DNA of 64,000 nucleotides, taken from the NCBI RefSeq assembly GCF_013031245.1, contig NZ_WPZL01000001.1, forward strand, positions 310,001 to 374,000, read 5' to 3'. Positions 9,653 through 16,856 of this stretch are shown piece by piece. The position numbers and the translations under genes were made by a program. Under the pieces are notes generated by a model, which saw only the letters and a program-made list of their open reading frames with translations, did no database searches and had not been told where the DNA came from. How positions within the stretch are numbered: position 1 is the stretch's first letter; each line of letters opens with the position of its first letter. Source of the stretch: Ruegeria lacuscaerulensis (GTDB lineage: Bacteria > Pseudomonadota > Alphaproteobacteria > Rhodobacterales > Rhodobacteraceae).

Positions 9653-9742
9653 GGGGAGGTGGCAGAGTGGTCGAATGCGGCGGTCTTGAAAACCGTTGAA
9701 CGTGAGAGCGTTCCCAGGGTTCGAATCCCTGTCTCCCCGCCA
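9653..9742 (+). tRNA. tRNA-Ser (UGA anticodon)
   Basis: A 90-base class II tRNA. The acceptor strands GGGGAGG and TCTCCCC pair (last pair G-U), the anticodon loop CTTGAAA presents TGA, a long variable arm is present (GTTGAACGTGAGAGCGTTC) and the T arm is CAGGGTTCGAATCCCTG. The 3' CCA is encoded. It lies beside the integrated element that starts about 170-370 bases downstream, although no second copy of its 3' end was seen at the far side. Confidence 0.96.
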
Positions 9743-9910: not shown

Positions 9911-10101
9911 TTCCCTGATACCCGGCAATTTACAGGGAATTTCTGCAAAACAAGTCTGGAACCCGAGATTTCAGATGTCACAACTCTATTTTTTCCAATA
10001 GCTTATGATGCAAATTCCCTAAAAAGTGGAACAGGGAATTTTCTCGCAAGAACAGGGAATTGTTCCGCCGGATCAGGGAGGGCGAACCCTGCATCAGGGA
10101 A
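9911..10101 (+). repeat. Cluster of CAGGGAA(TT) motifs beside the recombinase gene
   Basis: Seven copies of CAGGGAA-like sequence lie within 191 bases between the tRNA and the recombinase 3' end: inverted at 9911-9917, direct at 9933, inverted (AATTCCCT) at 10013, direct at 10032, 10052, 10073 (CAGGGAG) and 10095. The longest shared form is (A)ACAGGGAATT. The stretch 9743-10116 has no convincing gene. The clustering resembles binding sites for a recombinase or accessory protein, but this is inference. Confidence 0.6.
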
Positions 10102-10116
10102 GCATGACTGGAGCTA

Positions 10117-11796
10117 TCAGAAGCCGAACAGGCGCTCCTGTTCAGCCCAGTCAAGTGGGTGGGTCACGCTGACCAGACGCTTGAGTGTGAGTTCGGGCGG
10201 CTGAGCGCCGTCGAGAATCGCTGCCTGAATCTTCGGGGAGAGAAAGGCGAGCTGAGCACGGGTGCGGATGAAGGCGCCGGGGACGCTTTCGCGGCGTGCG
10301 ATCTCCATCAGTTGAACTCCGGCTTTCAGATCTCGGGCCCAGCCATGGGCGCGGATCAGCATGGACCGGAGGTGGGGATCAGGTTGGGGTGCCATATCTC
10401 CGGCGATGACCTTGGCCTCAACGCCGCGGCGGCGCAGATCGAAAGATGCGGTGACGTCGGTGAGATCCGGGTGCAGATGGTCCGCAGCAATGCCAAGTGC
10501 GCCTGCCAGAGTTTTGGGGTTCAATTCGAGGTCGATCTGACCTCGTGCAATTTTGCCTTTGGCCAGAAGAGCAGCGCCGACCTGACCGGCTTGGCGTTGA
10601 AGCCGGGTTGCTAAATCCGCGACCGAAGTCTGAACCGCCTCCGCTGACCCGGCCTCTGGCTGCGCCAGAACTCGATGCGTGATTGCGGCGTCTTGCAGAT
10701 GTCTGACGATGACATCAATGACCGCGTTTTCCAGTGCCGGGCCGGGCAGTCGCCAGCCGGAGATATCCTTGCCGCCCGAGATCAGTCGATTGGAGACATA
10801 ATAGCGCAACCGACGGCCTTTGCGCGTGGTGTGGGTCGGCGTCAACCGATCACCAGTTTCGTCCTGCAGCAGACCGGTGAGCCAGGCCCCGGGGTCAGTG
10901 GAGTGTTGGCGCTCATTGGGTGTGGGGTCTGCACGGGATCGCCGCGACGCTTGGCGCATTTTCTCCTGTACCCGGTCCCAGATGTCCTGGTCGATGATCG
11001 CCGGATGTTGTCCGTCCCAGATCTTGTCCTTGTGGCGGATTTTGCCTAGATAGACCGGGTTGCGCAACAGGTAATAGATCTGGCCGCGTGACAGCGGACA
11101 ATCCCCCTTCACGCTTCCATCCGCCCGAACAACCCGTTTTGATCGGAGGCCTTCTGCTGTTGCCCGTTCTTCTACTTTGCGCAGGCAACCCAGCTCGTCA
11201 TAAAGCCCAAAGAGATGCCGGACCGTTCTGGCCTCATCTTCATTCACCACCAGCGTTCTTGCTTTAGGATCGGGGTGGCGATCATAGCCCAGGGGAAGGT
11301 TGCCGCCCATCCAAAGTCCTTTTTTCTTAGACGCCGCGATTTTGTCGCGAATACGTTCGGCGGTGACTTCCCGTTCAAACTGAGCAAAGGACAACAGCAC
11401 GTTAAGGGTTAATCGACCCATGGTTGAAGAAGTATTGAAGGCCTGTGTGACGGACACAAAAGAAGAGTTCGCCTGTTCCAGCCGTTCGACGAGCTTGGAG
11501 AAGTCGGCAAGCGATCGGGTCAACCGGTCGATTTTGTAGACCACGACCATGTCGATGCGTCCGGCATCGATCTCTTCAAGCAGGCGTTGCAGGGCGGGGC
11601 GTTCGAGCGTACCGCCCGACAGGCCACCGTCATCGTAGCGGACTGGCAATGGGGCCCAACCTTCATGTCGCTGGCTGGCGATATAGGCCGCGCAGGCTTC
11701 GTATTGCGCATCCAGTGAATTGAAGTCCTGGTCCAGTCCATCTTCTGAGGACTTGCGTGTGTAGATCGCGCATCTGATTTTGCGGCGCGGGTTCAT
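10117..11796 (-). CDS. Large serine recombinase
   Basis: A 559-residue serine site-specific recombinase, the likely integrase of this element. The catalytic domain begins with YTRKSSEDG (nucleophile Ser16) and continues with DDGGLSGGTLERPALQRLLE and VVYKIDRLTRS; a recombinase domain follows (about 170-280, NPVYLGKIRHKDKIWDG). In the region where large serine recombinases carry a zinc ribbon, the sequence LTGLLQDETGDRLTPTHTTRKG keeps the fold pattern but has no cysteines. The ATG at 11796 overlaps the DUF2924 stop by four bases; a longer reading to 11949 would run into that gene. It forms an operon with the DUF2924 and DUF3489 genes, a trio often seen together in alphaproteobacterial islands. 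Confidence 0.92.
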   Translation of the reverse strand: MNPRRKIRCAIYTRKSSEDGLDQDFNSLDAQYEACAAYIASQRHEGWAPLPVRYDDGGLSGGTLERPALQRLLEEIDAGRIDMVVVYKIDRLTRSLADFSKLVERLEQANSSFVSVTQAFNTSSTMGRLTLNVLLSFAQFEREVTAERIRDKIAASKKKGLWMGGNLPLGYDRHPDPKARTLVVNEDEARTVRHLFGLYDELGCLRKVEERATAEGLRSKRVVRADGSVKGDCPLSRGQIYYLLRNPVYLGKIRHKDKIWDGQHPAIIDQDIWDRVQEKMRQASRRSRADPTPNERQHSTDPGAWLTGLLQDETGDRLTPTHTTRKGRRLRYYVSNRLISGGKDISGWRLPGPALENAVIDVIVRHLQDAAITHRVLAQPEAGSAEAVQTSVADLATRLQRQAGQVGAALLAKGKIARGQIDLELNPKTLAGALGIAADHLHPDLTDVTASFDLRRRGVEAKVIAGDMAPQPDPHLRSMLIRAHGWARDLKAGVQLMEIARRESVPGAFIRTRAQLAFLSPKIQAAILDGAQPPELTLKRLVSVTHPLDWAEQERLFGF

Positions 11797-12209
11797 TTGG
11801 TCGCCTTGCCGGTGAGCCCAAAGAAACGCGGCCCTGACCAATGCGCGCCGGTATTCTCTCGGGCGATGGCGGAGAGCGAGCGATAGGACCGACCGTTCCA
11901 AGTGAAGCCGTACTCTGTAACGTCGACTACATGGGTCACGCCATTCCACTCGCGCAGCATGCGCCCGCCGGGTTTTAGGCCAGGGCAGGCTGGCCGGGGT
12001 TTTTTCTCGGAACCCTTTTCCAGCGTGGCTTTGACATGCCGAGGTAGCCCGCCATGACAGCGGGACTGCATCTCAAAGGCAATGAAACGGCGCAGGAAGG
12101 GTTGGCTGAGCATGGCGGGGGCGGGTTGATCAAACAGTTTCTGCCAAAGCGTGACCAGATCCGATCGACCGATGGCGGCGAGATCGGCAATTTCGCTAAC
12201 CTTCGTCAC
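11793..12209 (-). CDS. DUF2924 protein, recombinase partner
   Basis: A 138-residue protein recognised as the DUF2924 family: N-terminal helical region containing the DLVTLWQKLFDQPAPAMLSQPFLRRF stretch (split here as LVTLWQKLFDQPAP and FLRRFIAFEMQ), then a basic, proline-rich centre (PRPACPGLKPGGRMLREWNG) and a small beta domain (THVVDVTEYGFTWNGRSYRSLSAIAREN). The last part resembles small DNA-binding beta folds. It overlaps the genes on both sides by four bases, so it is translated with the recombinase and may act as its accessory or directionality factor; no biochemical role is known to me. Confidence 0.8.
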   Translation of the reverse strand: MTKVSEIADLAAIGRSDLVTLWQKLFDQPAPAMLSQPFLRRFIAFEMQSRCHGGLPRHVKATLEKGSEKKPRPACPGLKPGGRMLREWNGVTHVVDVTEYGFTWNGRSYRSLSAIARENTGAHWSGPRFFGLTGKATK

Positions 12210-12436
12210 GACGCTTCTCCTGTTCCCGCCGTCAGGTGATAGGTGGTCGAGCCATCTGGTTTGTTGGATGCCCGCCTTTTAATTGTGACGCCTTTTTTCC
12301 GCAGACCGCTAATAGTTGCTCGGACCGAGTGAGGCCGCCACCCCGTTGCTTTGCAGAGCGCCTCAAGGCTGGCGCCGCTCGGGCGACGCAACAAAGCTTG
12401 CACCTTGTCAATTTTGGTTTGCTTCCGCTCGGACAC
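12206..12436 (-). CDS. DUF3489 winged-helix-like protein
   Basis: A 76-residue basic protein of the DUF3489 family. The segment KIDKVQALLRRPSGASLEALCKATGWRP followed by HSVRATISGLRKKG fits a helix-turn-helix DNA-binding fold. It is the first gene of the three-gene recombinase operon and its stop overlaps the DUF2924 start by four bases. A regulatory or accessory role in element excision or integration is inferred from context only. Confidence 0.8.
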   Translation of the reverse strand: MSERKQTKIDKVQALLRRPSGASLEALCKATGWRPHSVRATISGLRKKGVTIKRRASNKPDGSTTYHLTAGTGEAS

Positions 12437-12886
12437 GAACTGTCTCCTCTGATCTTGGGTCAGCGAGATGCCGAACCCCGGTACTGAGGAGCGCCCGAAT
12501 GGCTCGGGCGTGGGTTCAGTGATGCGTGGTTCACAGCAACAGTCCAGCTCTTTCTGAAACGATTACTGGAGGCGTGTATTTTGAAGTGCGTTGCTGCCGT
12601 ACCCCCGATTATTCGTCAACAATCTTAATTGGTTACTTTTAGTTTGGGGGGGTTGCGTCTCGTAATGATGGCACCTACATTCAACCCAATCGCTCGGACT
12701 ATCAGGGCGGGAAACTGCTCCCGCAGGCAGCACTCATTGGAAACACAGGTTTCCGCAGAGAGCATTCAAAGGAGCAACGTCTCGGATCGCTTTGGTCCGG
12801 GGAGTTGCGATTTGTGCTCTCTCCGATTTTCCAACGCGATCCCTCCATCTCGACGTCCTCGCGGCGTCACGCAAAAGGAGGCGGTT
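12437..12886. promoter_or_regulatory. Divergent promoter region of the integrated element
   Basis: A 450-base gap between the leftward recombinase operon and the rightward methyltransferase operon. It should carry both promoters. A perfect 7-base-pair hairpin (CGCCCGA-ATGGC-TCGGGCG) lies at 12492-12510 and an AAAAGGAGG ribosome site at the right end serves the methyltransferase gene. An open frame from 12629 into that gene exists but has no family features. No clear -35/-10 was identified. Confidence 0.45.
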
Positions 12887-14281
12887 ATGCCTGCCAAGAA
12901 AACACAAAGTGACGTTCAGGCGTCCTACACGCCGATCTGGATGGCGGACAAAGTCATCCAATCCCAGGTCAGCCAGATCAAGCCTTACGCCAATAACAAC
13001 CGCGTACATGCGGCCAAGAACATCGACAAACTGAAGGCTTCGGTGGCCCAGTTTGGCTTTGTCACTCCGATCCTTGTGGATGCTGCGGGCTGCATCATCG
13101 CGGGTCATGGCCGCTATGAGGCCGCTAAAGCCCTGGGGTTGAAATCTGTGCCGACGGTTGTCGCGGATCACTTGTCTGACGCTGAAGTACGCGCCCTGCG
13201 CATCGCGGATAACAAGCTGGCCGAATTGTCAGACTGGAACGAAGCGGCGCTCCAAATTGAGTTTGCCGAACTGATGGATCTCAGCCTTGATGGCGAGCTG
13301 GACTTCGATCTGGATATCACCGGGTTCGAAACGCCGGAGATTGACATCATCATCGATGGCGCGGATGAGGCCGCAAAGACTGAAGCGGAATCTGTTGAGA
13401 CGCCGAACCCTGCGGTACCTGTCATCACGCAGCCGGGCGAACTTTGGGTTCTTGGAGACCACCGCATCTTCTGTGGGGATTCCTTGCAAGCCCAGAGCTA
13501 CGACACCTTGCTGGATGGCGAGACCCCGCAGATGGTGTTCACTGATCCTCCTTACAATGTGCCGGTCAATGGGCATGTCCGTTGCGGCACCGGCGGCGAT
13601 CATCGCGAATTTGCCATGGCGTCGGGAGAAATGTCGGACAGCGAGTTCCGCAACTTTCTCACAGACGTGATTGCTCGTTTGCTCGTCATTCTGCCCGACG
13701 GAGGCATTGCGATGATCTGCATGGACTGGCGTCACATTGAAGAGTTAATTGCGGCGGGCAAGGCAGGTGGATTGGACCTCATCAATCTCTGCGTCTGGAA
13801 TAAGACCAACGGCGGGATGGGCAGCCTTTATCGGTCCAAGCACGAGCTGGTTTGTATCTTCAAGAAACCGGGGGCTTCGCATACCAACAATGTCGAATTG
13901 GGCAAACACGGGCGCAACCGGACCAATGTCTGGGATTACGCCGGTGTGAATAGTTTTGGGGCAGGGCGCGAGGCGGATCTCGCTGATCATCCGACGGTGA
14001 AGCCAACGGCCCTGGTGGCAGATGCCATCATGGATGTGAGCCATCGCGGCGACGTCGTGCTAGATGCCTTTGGCGGGTCCGGCGCGACCTTGCTGGCAGC
14101 TGAGAAAACCGGGCGCCGGGCGCGGCTCATTGAGCTCGACCCGGCCTATGTCGATGTCGCCATCCGCCGCTGGCAGGAGATGACTGGTGAGAGCGCCGTG
14201 CATTCGGTGTCAGGTCAGACGTTCGATGCGCTTTCTGCGGCCAGCGACACCACTTCAGAGCAGGAGGTGGGTCATGTCTGA
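12887..14281 (+). CDS. ParB-domain / DNA methyltransferase fusion
   Basis: A 464-residue protein. The N-terminal 110 or so residues are a ParB/Srx-type domain (QIKPYANNNRVHAAKNIDKL, IIAGHGRYEAAKALG, LRIADNKLAELSDWN). The remainder is an N6-adenine or N4-cytosine DNA methyltransferase with catalytic DPPY at 220-223 and the AdoMet-binding DAFGGSG at 393-399; catalytic motif before AdoMet motif indicates the beta class. The ATG at 12887 follows an AAAAGGAGG site. No restriction endonuclease is next to it, so it is an orphan, phage-type modification enzyme. It overlaps the DUF5681 start by eight bases and is presumably co-transcribed with the terminase. Confidence 0.9.
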   Translation: MPAKKTQSDVQASYTPIWMADKVIQSQVSQIKPYANNNRVHAAKNIDKLKASVAQFGFVTPILVDAAGCIIAGHGRYEAAKALGLKSVPTVVADHLSDAEVRALRIADNKLAELSDWNEAALQIEFAELMDLSLDGELDFDLDITGFETPEIDIIIDGADEAAKTEAESVETPNPAVPVITQPGELWVLGDHRIFCGDSLQAQSYDTLLDGETPQMVFTDPPYNVPVNGHVRCGTGGDHREFAMASGEMSDSEFRNFLTDVIARLLVILPDGGIAMICMDWRHIEELIAAGKAGGLDLINLCVWNKTNGGMGSLYRSKHELVCIFKKPGASHTNNVELGKHGRNRTNVWDYAGVNSFGAGREADLADHPTVKPTALVADAIMDVSHRGDVVLDAFGGSGATLLAAEKTGRRARLIELDPAYVDVAIRRWQEMTGESAVHSVSGQTFDALSAASDTTSEQEVGHV

Positions 14282-14721
14282 CGATACGAAGGAGTATGCG
14301 GTTGGCTACGGCAAACCGCCCAAAGCAACCCAATTCAAGAAAGGCCGATCCGGCAATCCGAAAGGGCGGCCGAAAGCCTCGAAGAATGTTGGGTCGATGC
14401 TTGAGGAGGTGTTCTTTCGGAAAATCCCGATCACCGAGAATGGATCACGCCGCGAGGTCACGATGCTGGAGGCAATCCTGCGCCAGCTGGTGAATGGGGC
14501 AGTTAAAGGCGAGATGCGTTCGATTGACCGGGTTCTGAAACTGTTGCCCACGGTTCAGGAGGCGCGCCGCAGAGTTGGCGGGTGGCGAAGGTGCAACCGA
14601 GACCGACCCCGGTTCAGACATGGCCGCCCTGGAAGTGCTGGCGGATATGTTTGGTAACGATCCGGATCAACTCTTTGCAAGCATCCAGGGAGGCATCGAC
14701 GATGAATGCCCTGAATTCTGA
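14274..14721 (+). pseudogene. DUF5681 gene with a frameshift
   Basis: The N-terminal 95 residues match the DUF5681 family (GYGKPPKATQFKKGRSGNPKGRPKASKN, then a helical part with RSIDRVLKLLPTVQEARR). At about 14565-14575 (GCGCGCCGCAGAG) the frame breaks: the annotated frame continues as an Arg/Trp-rich tail ending at 14657, while the next frame continues as AELAGGEGATETDPGSDM... and ends DDECPEF at 14719-14721, a sensible acidic C-terminus that overlaps the terminase start by 20 bases like a coupled gene. A one-base loss or two-base gain restores it. It could be an inactivated gene, a sequencing error or, less likely, programmed slippage. DUF5681 genes sit before terminases in phage-like islands and could act like a small terminase subunit. 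Confidence 0.75.
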
Positions 14722-16192
14722 TGATCGCAAAAGGCTGGCAGAGGCTGCGATGCGTGAAAACCTCTACGCATTCCTTGCGGGCAGTTTTGGTATCTTGTGT
14801 CCGGGCGAAAAGCTTGCCCGGGCTCCCTACCTGGAGGCCATGTGTTACGCCCTTCAACGCGTGGCCTCCGGTGAGTGCCAACGGTTGATGATCTCGATTG
14901 CCCCGCGCCATCTGAAATCGATCTGTGGATCTGTTTTGTTGCCAGCCTTTGAGCTTGGACGCGATCCGACAAAGAAAGTGGTAGTTGTCAGTTACGGCAA
15001 AGATCTGGCGCGCGAACATGCCGAACAGTTTCGACGGCTGGTGACCAGCCCGTATTATCAGCGCCTGTTTCCAAAGATGAAGGTCGATCCCAAACACAAC
15101 CGGTTCGAACATATGAAAACCACCAAAGGAGGCGGGCGCAAATCGGTCTCTCTTGGCGGTGGTATCACCGGCTTTGGTGCAAACCTCATTATCATCGACG
15201 ATCTGGGTAAACCTTCAGAAATGCGCCACGATACGTACCGCCAGGAGTTGCGTGATTTTTTCGACCAGACCCTGTTCTCGCGGCTGAACGACAAGCGCAC
15301 CGATCGTATTGTCTCGATTCAGCAGCGTCTGCACCCGGATGACTTCTCCGCCTATCTCTTGGAAAAGGACACATTTGATCATCTGTGCCTGCCGTCGATC
15401 GCGGAGATCCCGGAAGAGATCCCGCTCTACAACAACCGGGTCCTGAAGCGTCAGCCAGGAGACTTGTTGAACCCAGAGCGGGAACCGCAGGAGGTTCTTG
15501 AGCGGATCAAGGCCGACATAGGCAATTTTGCCTTCCAGGCGCAGTATCAACAAAACCCCACGGACGGAGAAAACGAGTTTCTCTCCATGTCCGACTTGCA
15601 TCTGGTGGAAACCTTGCCGGACGAAAGCGTGTTCGTCCGGCGGGTCCAGAGCTGGGATACGGCAGCGAAGGATGGTCCACGCTGTGACTTCACAGTGGGG
15701 CTGACCTTTGGATGGCATGCGTATGAAGAGAGATGGTATTTGCTCGACGTCTTTCGTGCTCGAACGAACTACACTCAGGTGCGGAACACTGTTCTTCGAT
15801 TGCGCAAACAATGGCGCGCGGACCGGGTCTTGATTGAATCCTCTGCGATGGGTATCCACCTGCTTGATGAGTTGAAACGCACCGCAGCAGGCGTCTTCAT
15901 GCCCGTCAATGTGGTCAGCAGCAAGCTGGATCGCTTCATCCCACAGACCGACTGGATCAAATCTGGCGAGTTAGTCATCCCCACGAACAAGCCCTGGTTT
16001 GATGAGTTCCGCAGGGAACTGCTGGCGTTTCCGGATGCTCTCAAAGATGATCAGGTGGATGCCTTGACCCAGTTCGCCGAATACATGCGTCGAAGCCAAG
16101 GGACATATCTCGATACAGATCCTTACACTGGCCGGCGCCAAGGAAACTATCGACCCGAACGACCAAGAAGGGAAGATCGCATGCGGTTCTGA
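14702..16192 (+). CDS. Phage terminase large subunit
   Basis: A 496-residue packaging ATPase/nuclease. The ATPase part has an adenine-side region, a variant Walker A (IAPRHLKSI, lacking the usual Gly before Lys), a strand-loop VVVVSYGKDLAREHAEQFRR, and Walker B LIIIDDLGKP. The C-terminal half has RNase H-like nuclease features (QSWDTAAKDG, LIESSAMGIHLLDEL, DDQVDALTQF with acidic residues at expected places). The start at 14702 (MNALNSDDRKRL) is chosen because earlier in-frame codons lie within the DUF5681 gene. No portal, protease or capsid genes follow; the operon ends here. Confidence 0.9.
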   Translation: MNALNSDDRKRLAEAAMRENLYAFLAGSFGILCPGEKLARAPYLEAMCYALQRVASGECQRLMISIAPRHLKSICGSVLLPAFELGRDPTKKVVVVSYGKDLAREHAEQFRRLVTSPYYQRLFPKMKVDPKHNRFEHMKTTKGGGRKSVSLGGGITGFGANLIIIDDLGKPSEMRHDTYRQELRDFFDQTLFSRLNDKRTDRIVSIQQRLHPDDFSAYLLEKDTFDHLCLPSIAEIPEEIPLYNNRVLKRQPGDLLNPEREPQEVLERIKADIGNFAFQAQYQQNPTDGENEFLSMSDLHLVETLPDESVFVRRVQSWDTAAKDGPRCDFTVGLTFGWHAYEERWYLLDVFRARTNYTQVRNTVLRLRKQWRADRVLIESSAMGIHLLDELKRTAAGVFMPVNVVSSKLDRFIPQTDWIKSGELVIPTNKPWFDEFRRELLAFPDALKDDQVDALTQFAEYMRRSQGTYLDTDPYTGRRQGNYRPERPRREDRMRF

Positions 16193-16856
16193 CACCACGC
16201 GAGGGCGCTTCCAGCGACCTGGGGTTGTATATCAAATCTTCGACCTCGAACGCCTGCGATGAAGCGCGAAGCTGCCGTTAGGGCTAACTGCAGCGAATGT
16301 CTGCGCTGAGTCCAACCTGTGAATTCGATTATCGTGCTGCGCGCGCTCGCAGCACGACTAATGCCGCAATTGCACAATATCACGCGCTGCCACCCAGCGG
16401 GAAAACTGATCATTCAGGCACACCGCAGCAAATCTGAAACCCCGAGTTTGCTCAGCGCGCCCTTGCCTTGCTATGCCGCGCAGAACAGGAATTGGGGCAA
16501 AGCTCGGAAACCAACCGCTGATTTGGATAGCCTTCGAATACCGCCCGCATATTCAATGCAACAGTGGTCGTGCAATTTTCGGCGGCCTCGATTTCCCTTA
16601 CCTTGATACATCTTGGTTTAGAATTTCGCTTGGCTCACAAAATACAGTCTTTCGTTCAAAAGAGATGAGTTGCTCCAAAAATCGATCGTCTGAACCTCAC
16701 CCAATTGCCGTCCCGATTCTGGACAACGCCCAACTACAAAGAACTCTCGAACGTAAACTCGCAAGAGTCGAATGGGGGGATCACCAATCGGAATGCCTTG
16801 TAAGGCCAACCGCGATGATAGCGTCCAGACACGTTATGAAAAGCGAGGCGCAGTCG
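16193..16856. other. Gene-free right flank of the element
   Basis: A 664-base stretch between the terminase and the next chromosomal gene. No convincing coding region was seen. It contains the perfect inverted repeat at 16332-16357 and, at 16483-16494, AGAACAGGAATTG, one base shorter than the AGAACAGGGAATTG at 10049-10061 near the recombinase. The right end of the element and the promoter of the catabolic operon probably lie here. Confidence 0.5.
16332..16357. repeat. Perfect 10-bp inverted repeat
   Basis: TCGTGCTGCG and CGCAGCACGA are exact inverted copies separated by CGCGCT. There is no T run on either side, so it is not an obvious intrinsic terminator; it might act as a transcript-end hairpin for the terminase operon or as a protein-binding site at the element border. 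Confidence 0.6.

Follow-up and report, generated by a model that had tools for sequence, protein, structure and literature searches.

An integrative element family with a virus-type packaging motor and no shell genes in Ruegeria and relatives: probable phage satellites

Introduction

Why would a mobile element carry a DNA-packaging motor when it has no shell to fill? The question is raised by a locus in Ruegeria lacuscaerulensis (assembly GCF_013031245.1, contig NZ_WPZL01000001.1, positions 310,001 to 374,000 of the forward strand; this whole stretch of 64,000 nucleotides is the window and supplies the coordinates below), where six genes at 10117-16192 include those of a serine recombinase, a DNA methyltransferase and a large terminase subunit (TerL). 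An original prediction from the sequence alone had found the locus to resemble a satellite, packaged by a helper phage or a gene transfer agent, more than a decayed prophage. We report here that the locus is one copy of a widespread mobile element family with a minimal size of about 6-6.5 kb. The family is apparently undescribed, as no description of it was found in the open-licence PMC literature (preprints lay outside this scope), including under DUF2924, DUF3489 and DUF5681. Its gene content suggests that a shell-less family equipped with a virus-type packaging motor rides in the shells of other viruses; its members are probably phage satellites.

The satellites P4, PICI, cf-PICI, PICMI and two from Streptomyces use a helper terminase, with at most a small subunit of their own, or carry their own head genes (PMC10690885, PMC10803314, PMC11389934; papers cited by PMC number are represented here by excerpts). 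An element owning only the motor would test TerL as a portable part that docks on foreign portals.

Results

Gene content of the window element

All six genes have strong family matches and form two divergent operons whose members overlap or are close-packed, with serine recombinase, DUF2924 and DUF3489 running leftward and a ParB-type methyltransferase, DUF5681 and TerL running rightward. The places and order given by the original prediction stood, whereas the recombinase start was revised from 11949 to 11799 and the element was found to extend beyond both ends first proposed, on the left to the 3' half of tRNA-Ser(TGA), whose end lies 378 bp from the recombinase 3' end, and on the right through a tail to about 16,315. 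Starts were set by homology (recombinase 11799; methyltransferase 12887, with no internal stop; TerL 14702). The features are as follows.

9653..9742, plus strand: tRNA-Ser(TGA), called by ARAGORN; the left attachment region, on the side of the recombinase, is formed by its 3' half
9911..10101: CAGGGAA repeat array in the gap between tRNA and recombinase, with copies at 9911 (minus) and at 9933, 10032, 10053 and 10095 (plus)
10117..11799, minus strand: large serine recombinase (integrase); PF00239 Resolvase 2e-37, PF07508 Recombinase 1.5e-12, PHROG integrase 3e-95
11793..12209, minus strand: DUF2924 protein; PF11149 2e-38
12206..12436, minus strand: DUF3489 small protein; PF11994 1e-20
12887..14281, plus strand: ParB-N / adenine-type DNA methyltransferase, intact; N6_N4_Mtase 5e-29, ParB_N 3e-8
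14274..14657, plus strand: DUF5681 gene in the small-terminase position, frameshifted; PF18932 2e-24
14702..16192, plus strand: TerL (ATPase and RNase H-like nuclease), the final element gene; Terminase_6C 2e-7, PHROG terminase large subunit 2e-96
16193..16315, plus strand: non-coding right tail common to other Ruegeria copies, beyond which the flanks mostly diverge

The recombinase has the make-up of a large serine recombinase, namely a resolvase domain with the catalytic serine motif and a recombinase domain; it matches the PDB structure of TP901-1 integrase (7e-29), and its YTRKS motif is invariant across 13 recombinases. Similarly, the DPPY and FxGxG columns are invariant across 14 methyltransferases. 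In TerL, K72, D166-D167, D319, E379, D450 and D453 are invariant in 19 sequences, their catalytic roles (Walker A/B, RNase H-like nuclease) being assigned by motif, and the identification as a large terminase draws on these residues together with PHROG, NCBIfam and PDB matches, the two PDB relatives being a terminase large subunit and a DNA maturase B. TerL and DUF2924 each have a single match in their own genome, and the TerL matches at 95-98% identity in named genomes are Ruegeria records, in keeping with a Roseobacteraceae-type genome. As had been predicted, family searches found no capsid, portal or tail gene among the six.

Recurrence as a unit

The six-gene set, which the original prediction proposed to look for in other genomes, does recur there. 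All six genes are present in 29 of 46 relative loci (L060-L079, L168-L187 and six loci from named genomes; 27 of 44 when L038/L184 and L040/L175, each one locus entered twice, are counted once), in 24 of the 80 IMG/VR loci ranked best by TerL profile among at least 579 relatives, and in 8 of 20 loci chosen from the better class-wide matches. Recombinase and TerL occur together in 58 of the same 80 IMG/VR loci, of which 74 lie on contigs shorter than 12 kb. Since TerL genes serve as a marker of viruses, such elements can be counted as viruses. The recombinase is present in 13 of the 20 class-wide loci; the seven others comprise a prophage with a portal gene (L487), a locus with phage replication genes (L484) and five of ambiguous type. 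Surveys of genomes found a TerL match at E<=1e-40 in 44 of 385 genomes of the class and at E<=1e-100 in 17 of 398 genomes of the phylum, three of them outside the class, some matches in either survey possibly being non-elements; a related TerL was also found in an Elusimicrobiales assembly (L046).

There are two main arrangements and a few further ones. In the first, that of the window, the recombinase module runs leftward and the packaging module rightward with TerL last; in the second, all genes are co-oriented in the order methyltransferase, DUF5681, TerL, a slot, DUF3489, DUF2924 and recombinase. TerL ends the packaging module in nearly all loci (exceptions L233 and L265). That the two modules are kept together in differing orders argues that they work together. 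In one genome (G045) there are two copies of 6.5 kb that are 93.9% identical; their ends are sharp and their flanks differ. Each has five of the six genes and a short extra open reading frame (ORF), DUF3489 not being found by the gene panel.

Insertion at tRNA genes and the element ends

Among the 80 locus rows (two loci being entered twice) that extend 500 bp or more past the recombinase 3' end, 38 have an inward-pointing tRNA within 600 bp of it, compared with 20 of 1600 random positions. By source, these are 29 of the 37 rows of the Roseobacteraceae set, 4 of the 32 from IMG/VR, 4 of the 10 class-wide rows and the window itself; tRNA-Ser is the main type, followed by Arg, Met, Ala, Val, Asp and Gln. 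CAGGGAA clusters (at least three copies within 250 bp) occur in 32 of 40 family loci, mostly in minus-then-plus order at the recombinase end, and are rarer elsewhere (11 of 80 IMG/VR and 2 of 20 class-wide loci); they are perhaps recombinase arm sites or packaging or replication iterons.

The original prediction looked to empty sites for the ends of the element, and one was found for a relative. In genome G268, tRNA-Arg(ACG) is followed directly by the flank that in G282 comes after the element, and the upstream DNA of the two genomes is alignable. The right junction in G282 is a tRNA-like 3' half, with a T-arm motif 34 bases past the TerL stop and several differences from the tRNA. This relative is inserted as a block at the tRNA; the occupied and empty sites compared are those of G282 and G268.

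The right end of the window copy was approached through its closest relatives. In four loci whose TerL is 95-98% identical to that of the window (L033, L040, L042 and L044), the DNA after TerL is common for about 120 bp and then differs, window and L044 being alike for about 250 bp; L034 and L043, 99% identical there, separate 31 bp past the TerL stop. Three near-identical copies diverge at one point, within one or two bases. The motif GACTGCTTYGAGCCCA, at about 16300 in the window, is a dispersed intergenic repeat in Ruegeria inside which several element right flanks diverge. Because the boundary motif is such a repeat, the right end of the window copy is placed only within 16,193-16,472.

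Several proposals for the element ends were rejected. TTYGAGCCC, which marks the boundary in many Ruegeria copies, proved to be a repeat dispersed over the chromosome rather than an attachment core. The simple idea that one tRNA supplies both ends does not hold for L035, L064, L067 and L078, whose far end is a tRNA-Met(CAT) half, nor for the G045 pair (L074/L075), where the far-end half was read as tRNA-Thr and lies inside the duplicated 6.5-kb unit. Within the window, a right-hand repeat of the tRNA end was represented by just 11-13-base matches. Finally, a 62-bp copy of the left junction 81 kb away (90538-90599) was rejected as the right end; it lies behind an insertion sequence fragment and was read as a relic of the left end of a second element.

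The tRNA-Ser(TGA) query matches 54 of 54 genomes of the genus, and the genes downstream mostly differ in the 11 compared, L153 and L156 sharing a block; judged from the window from 9743 on and loci L151-L167, the site is an insertion hotspot. In L156, L162 and L164, solely a C-terminal recombinase fragment stands at tRNA-Ser, followed by an insertion sequence of about 820 bp. Beyond the window, its chromosome also carries a copy of this insertion sequence and a relative about 72% alike (66261-67078 and 81640-82189 in window coordinates). On the other side of the element, the metabolic genes from 16473 on are 87% identical over 7.5 kb in G283, where the 13.8 kb read yielded no element gene.

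TerL phylogeny and selection

A first tree of 107 TerL rows (70 from recombinase loci, 14 labelled phage and 23 unclassified, with IMG/VR ORFs shorter than 380 aa left out) parts the recombinase-locus TerLs from the phage TerLs by one change (support 92). In a second tree of 113 rows, with 20 class-wide rows added and nine near-copies left out, one branch, with 99% SH-aLRT support, has all 74 element rows and 23 unclassified rows on the same side, and none of the 13 phage rows is among them. Five long-branch rows were left out of the second tree (L074, L291, L055, L427 and L079); two of these are element rows, and both had fallen on the element side in the first. Matches to phage TerLs comprised 1,792 records, the best-ranked 33.8% identical and all below 60%. 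The pattern that would have spoken for a prophage edge was looked for: portal or capsid genes beside related TerLs do exist, but those TerLs, including that of prophage L487, lie outside the element group. No head or tail family was found after TerL among the 25 most-matched PHROGs (92 further families lying beyond these) in 126 of 155 eligible ORFs within 6 kb in related loci.

The ratio of non-synonymous to synonymous substitution rates (dN/dS; pairs with saturated dS give no value) is 0.03-0.09 for TerL of the window type, 0.05-0.12 for a second TerL type (0.47 in one near-identical pair with dS 0.011), 0.10-0.16 for the recombinase and 0.09-0.13 for methyltransferases compared with the window. 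Between the two G045 copies it is 0.27 for TerL, 0.16 for the recombinase and 0.09 for the methyltransferase. By these ratios, TerL, methyltransferase and recombinase are under purifying selection.

Four further loci lie inside the element TerL group on contigs from which the family recombinase is absent, namely L219, with a RecE-type exonuclease, and L230, L258 and L276, with Erf-type annealing proteins; L268 is similar, its Erf-type assignment being made by shared clusters.

Exchange of the DUF5681-TerL pair and slot cargo

In eight copies from the same genus at the same tRNA, the recombinase is 90-93% and the methyltransferase 81-89% identical to that of the window, whereas DUF5681 is 48-60% identical and TerL is of another type, about 37% identical. 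Both TerL types occur on one contig of G294, 69 kb apart. Such a swap on a constant backbone is expected if the packaging pair must match a changing partner.

Cargo was sampled in ten loci of the co-oriented arrangement, hand-picked for ORFs in the slot between TerL and the recombinase module, and in five of the ten the slot carries defence genes, known or candidate: restriction-modification of type I (L045), a type II pair (L046), a PD-Lambda-4 model jointly covered by two ORFs (L475), type IIG (L477) and PDC-S06 (L478). The remaining slots hold a Tle1-like phospholipase (L228), other domains (L252 and L480) or ORFs with no domain match (L237; L469, by Pfam scan alone). No defence cargo was found in the window copy.

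Discussion

How a motor without a shell could be used

These observations are consistent with a family of integrative elements that bring their own terminase while a helper phage supplies portal, head (capsid) and tail, and it is towards this satellite reading that we lean on balance. The gene set, the intact motor and the location beside a tRNA are established, as are insertion and duplication as a unit in relatives. From these parts a working cycle can be proposed. First, the serine recombinase would integrate the element and excise it as a circle, perhaps under the direction of DUF2924 and DUF3489. Second, once a helper phage infects or is induced, DUF5681, acting as small terminase, and TerL would recognise and cut element DNA and pump element concatemers via the helper portal into helper capsids, while the methyltransferase would mark the element's own DNA. 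Finally, swapping of the DUF5681-TerL pair would retarget the element to other helpers, and larger relatives would carry anti-phage cargo in the slot beside TerL. Small size is no obstacle to packaging, because full-size particles package the 6.1-kb satellite PICMI as an 8-mer (PMC10803314), and terminase genes have been taken to suggest mobilisation by phages (review, PMC11389934). If this is true, the family would provide an undescribed route for restriction and other defence genes between bacteria.

Within this cycle, DUF5681 is assigned a small-terminase role by its position, as structure searches returned no terminase-like match. A search of a viral structure library gave one match below E 0.001, itself another DUF5681 protein, and no terminase, and in three phages taken for comparison the small terminase matches other families or helix-turn-helix domains. 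A DUF5681 protein is listed in a Salmonella phage structural proteome (PMC8954984), and the DUF2924 Pfam family partly matches the RAMA DNA-binding domain (PMC11342252).

A number of points weigh against the satellite reading. Excision, helper dependence, the role of DUF5681 and concatemer packaging are steps that we infer, and the element TerL must fit a foreign portal. No replication or primase gene and no capsid-remodelling gene was found among the six, and the structural model of DUF5681 (24 sequences, pLDDT 72.5) has a best PDB row at Z 3.2, with no terminase among the rows. The window DUF5681 gene is frameshifted near 14,562 relative to the intact relatives L033, L039 and L040, and selection is weaker on DUF2924 (dN/dS 0.17-0.26) and DUF3489 (0.15-0.39). 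As for the ends, the empty-site genome G268 has another recombinase, about 50% identical, 2.8 kb beyond the tRNA; the right boundary in Ruegeria coincides with the dispersed repeat; of the 32 rows with the window arrangement, which represent 30 distinct loci, 5 show a clear tRNA 3' half in the 260 bp behind TerL, compared with 41 of 4000 random windows, the search pattern having been written after examples had been seen; and the tRNA that supplied some of those halves is not the one beside the recombinase. Many loci are incomplete (one or more of the six genes is missing in 17 of 46, 56 of 80 and 12 of 20, contig ends being part of the cause), the IMG/VR set is a non-random sample, and the 99% branch comes from a quick search with a midpoint root and the five long-branch rows omitted.

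A bolder form of the satellite reading, which we put forward tentatively and with less conviction than the reading itself, is that these are mobile packaging motors of a single origin, in which TerL and DUF5681 form a pump without portal, capsid or replicase that docks into the procapsids of unrelated helpers, retargets by DUF5681-TerL exchange and carries an anti-phage slot, spread through the Alphaproteobacteria and beyond, with many short contigs filed as viruses.

Alternative explanations

The same genes could serve defence, TerL and DUF5681 acting as decoys or saboteurs that block portals or cut phage concatemers while the methyltransferase protects self DNA and the element spreads by other means. 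We regard this as unlikely. Purifying selection despite the lack of shell genes, the element's own methyltransferase and the restriction and candidate defence cargo adjoining TerL in relatives would suit it; however, all nuclease- and motor-type columns and the DUF5681 partner are kept, which fits packaging at least equally, and cassette swaps move the whole DUF5681-TerL pair.

It is less probable still that the six genes are the integration and transfer end of larger islands, with the metabolic genes from 16473 in the same mobile unit. Such islands would be in keeping with a tRNA-Ser site found throughout the genus with varied content downstream and with relatives that have cargo beside TerL, but copies with TerL 95-98% identical differ in their right flank, three near-identical copies part within a base or two of one point, the window's metabolic genes recur in G283 with no element gene in the DNA read there, and the flank directly after TerL in G282 is the one that follows the tRNA in the empty site.

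We give similarly little credence to a motor working inside the cell, one that moves, segregates or processes the excised circle together with a ParB-type protein and without a virus particle. The fusion of a ParB-N domain to the methyltransferase would fit this, as would the absence of shell genes and of a known helper, yet TerL is of the packaging type, and we know of no non-packaging role for TerL.

Gene transfer agents are common in Rhodobacterales, and the original prediction had named them as a possible carrier. Hitch-hiking in such an agent, or in the capsid-bearing island of its own genome, nevertheless seems very improbable: the gene transfer agent of Rhodobacter packages roughly 4 kb, below the size of the element, and related TerLs also occur outside the class (in three genomes and in the Elusimicrobiales assembly). 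The gene-transfer-agent capsid, portal and tail cluster is absent from the element, and the sole gene of the portal family searched (PF04860) found in the genome sits apart from it, in an integrase-portal-capsid-terminase island on contig 30; this version of the prediction is unsupported so far. The island on contig 30 (160000-178000, L437), whose presence would by itself favour such hitch-hiking, encodes on one strand a tyrosine integrase, a portal, a fused prohead protease-capsid protein, a head completion protein, a gp17-type protein and TerL, and has the appearance of either a capsid-forming satellite or the head module of a prophage.

That the locus is a prophage from which the structural genes were deleted is hardly credible, since like content recurs in many genera, the TerLs group apart from those of phages under purifying selection and a whole unit is duplicated in G045, despite the frameshifted DUF5681 of the window and the recombinase fragments abutting tRNA-Ser in other genomes. 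The satellite-like character suggested by the original prediction is supported for the family, by its gene set in many genera, the place of TerL at the end of the packaging module in nearly all loci, its separate TerLs, its purifying selection and the empty site of a relative. The window copy, by contrast, looks partly decayed: its DUF5681 gene is frameshifted, and this copy may be decaying, whereas the family is not.

Comparison with known systems

Although the element would work like a satellite, it fits no satellite family definition that is testable here (PICI, cf-PICI, PICMI). PICIs are defined by their own primase/replication module and their reliance on helper TerL, a definition that is partly general knowledge. 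The element resembles PICIs and SaPIs as a small chromosomal island, and certain SaPIs divert packaging by means of a small terminase of their own, but PICIs use the TerL of the helper, whereas here TerL is element-borne and no primase or replication gene was found among the six genes (PMC10690885). Like cf-PICIs it carries a candidate for each terminase subunit, but cf-PICIs also carry capsid, protease, portal and connectors (PMC10690885), and none of these was found among its genes.

There is a likeness to PICMIs, which are also about 6 kb, integrative, without capsid or remodelling genes and found in marine hosts; their concatemers are packaged in full-size helper particles (PMC10803314), a trait that the element would share. 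PICMIs differ in adjoining fis in Vibrionaceae and in having three core excision/replication proteins, with no terminase gene named in the excerpt (PMC10803314), whereas the element has a serine recombinase, tRNA sites and its own TerL and DUF5681, with no replication gene seen.

Individual parts have counterparts in phages. The catalytic and recombinase domains are like those of TP901-1-type large serine integrases, and phage WO of Wolbachia is reported to have such a DUF2924-recombinase pair (PMC10299305); the element differs from both in its companion packaging genes, its tRNA targets and its lack of virion genes. Faecalibacterium phage FP_Brigit has a ParB-type gene, a small protein and TerL in equal order, but it is a 61.7-kb phage whose TerL lies outside the element group and whose small terminase gives no match to DUF5681. 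One candidate for a packaged element, Acetobacter phage phiAO1, was rejected because its annotation is that of a full phage with a baseplate gene; its genome (LC644971.1, L435) encodes a TerL 32% identical and, on the opposite strand, sulfurtransferase, peroxiredoxin, superoxide dismutase and catalase genes. The Sphingobium plasmid pTomTYG65a (L432) carries methyltransferase, DUF5681 and TerL (46%), and the 17 kb shown has neither a recombinase nor structural genes annotated; this locus would appear to be an orphan packaging module.

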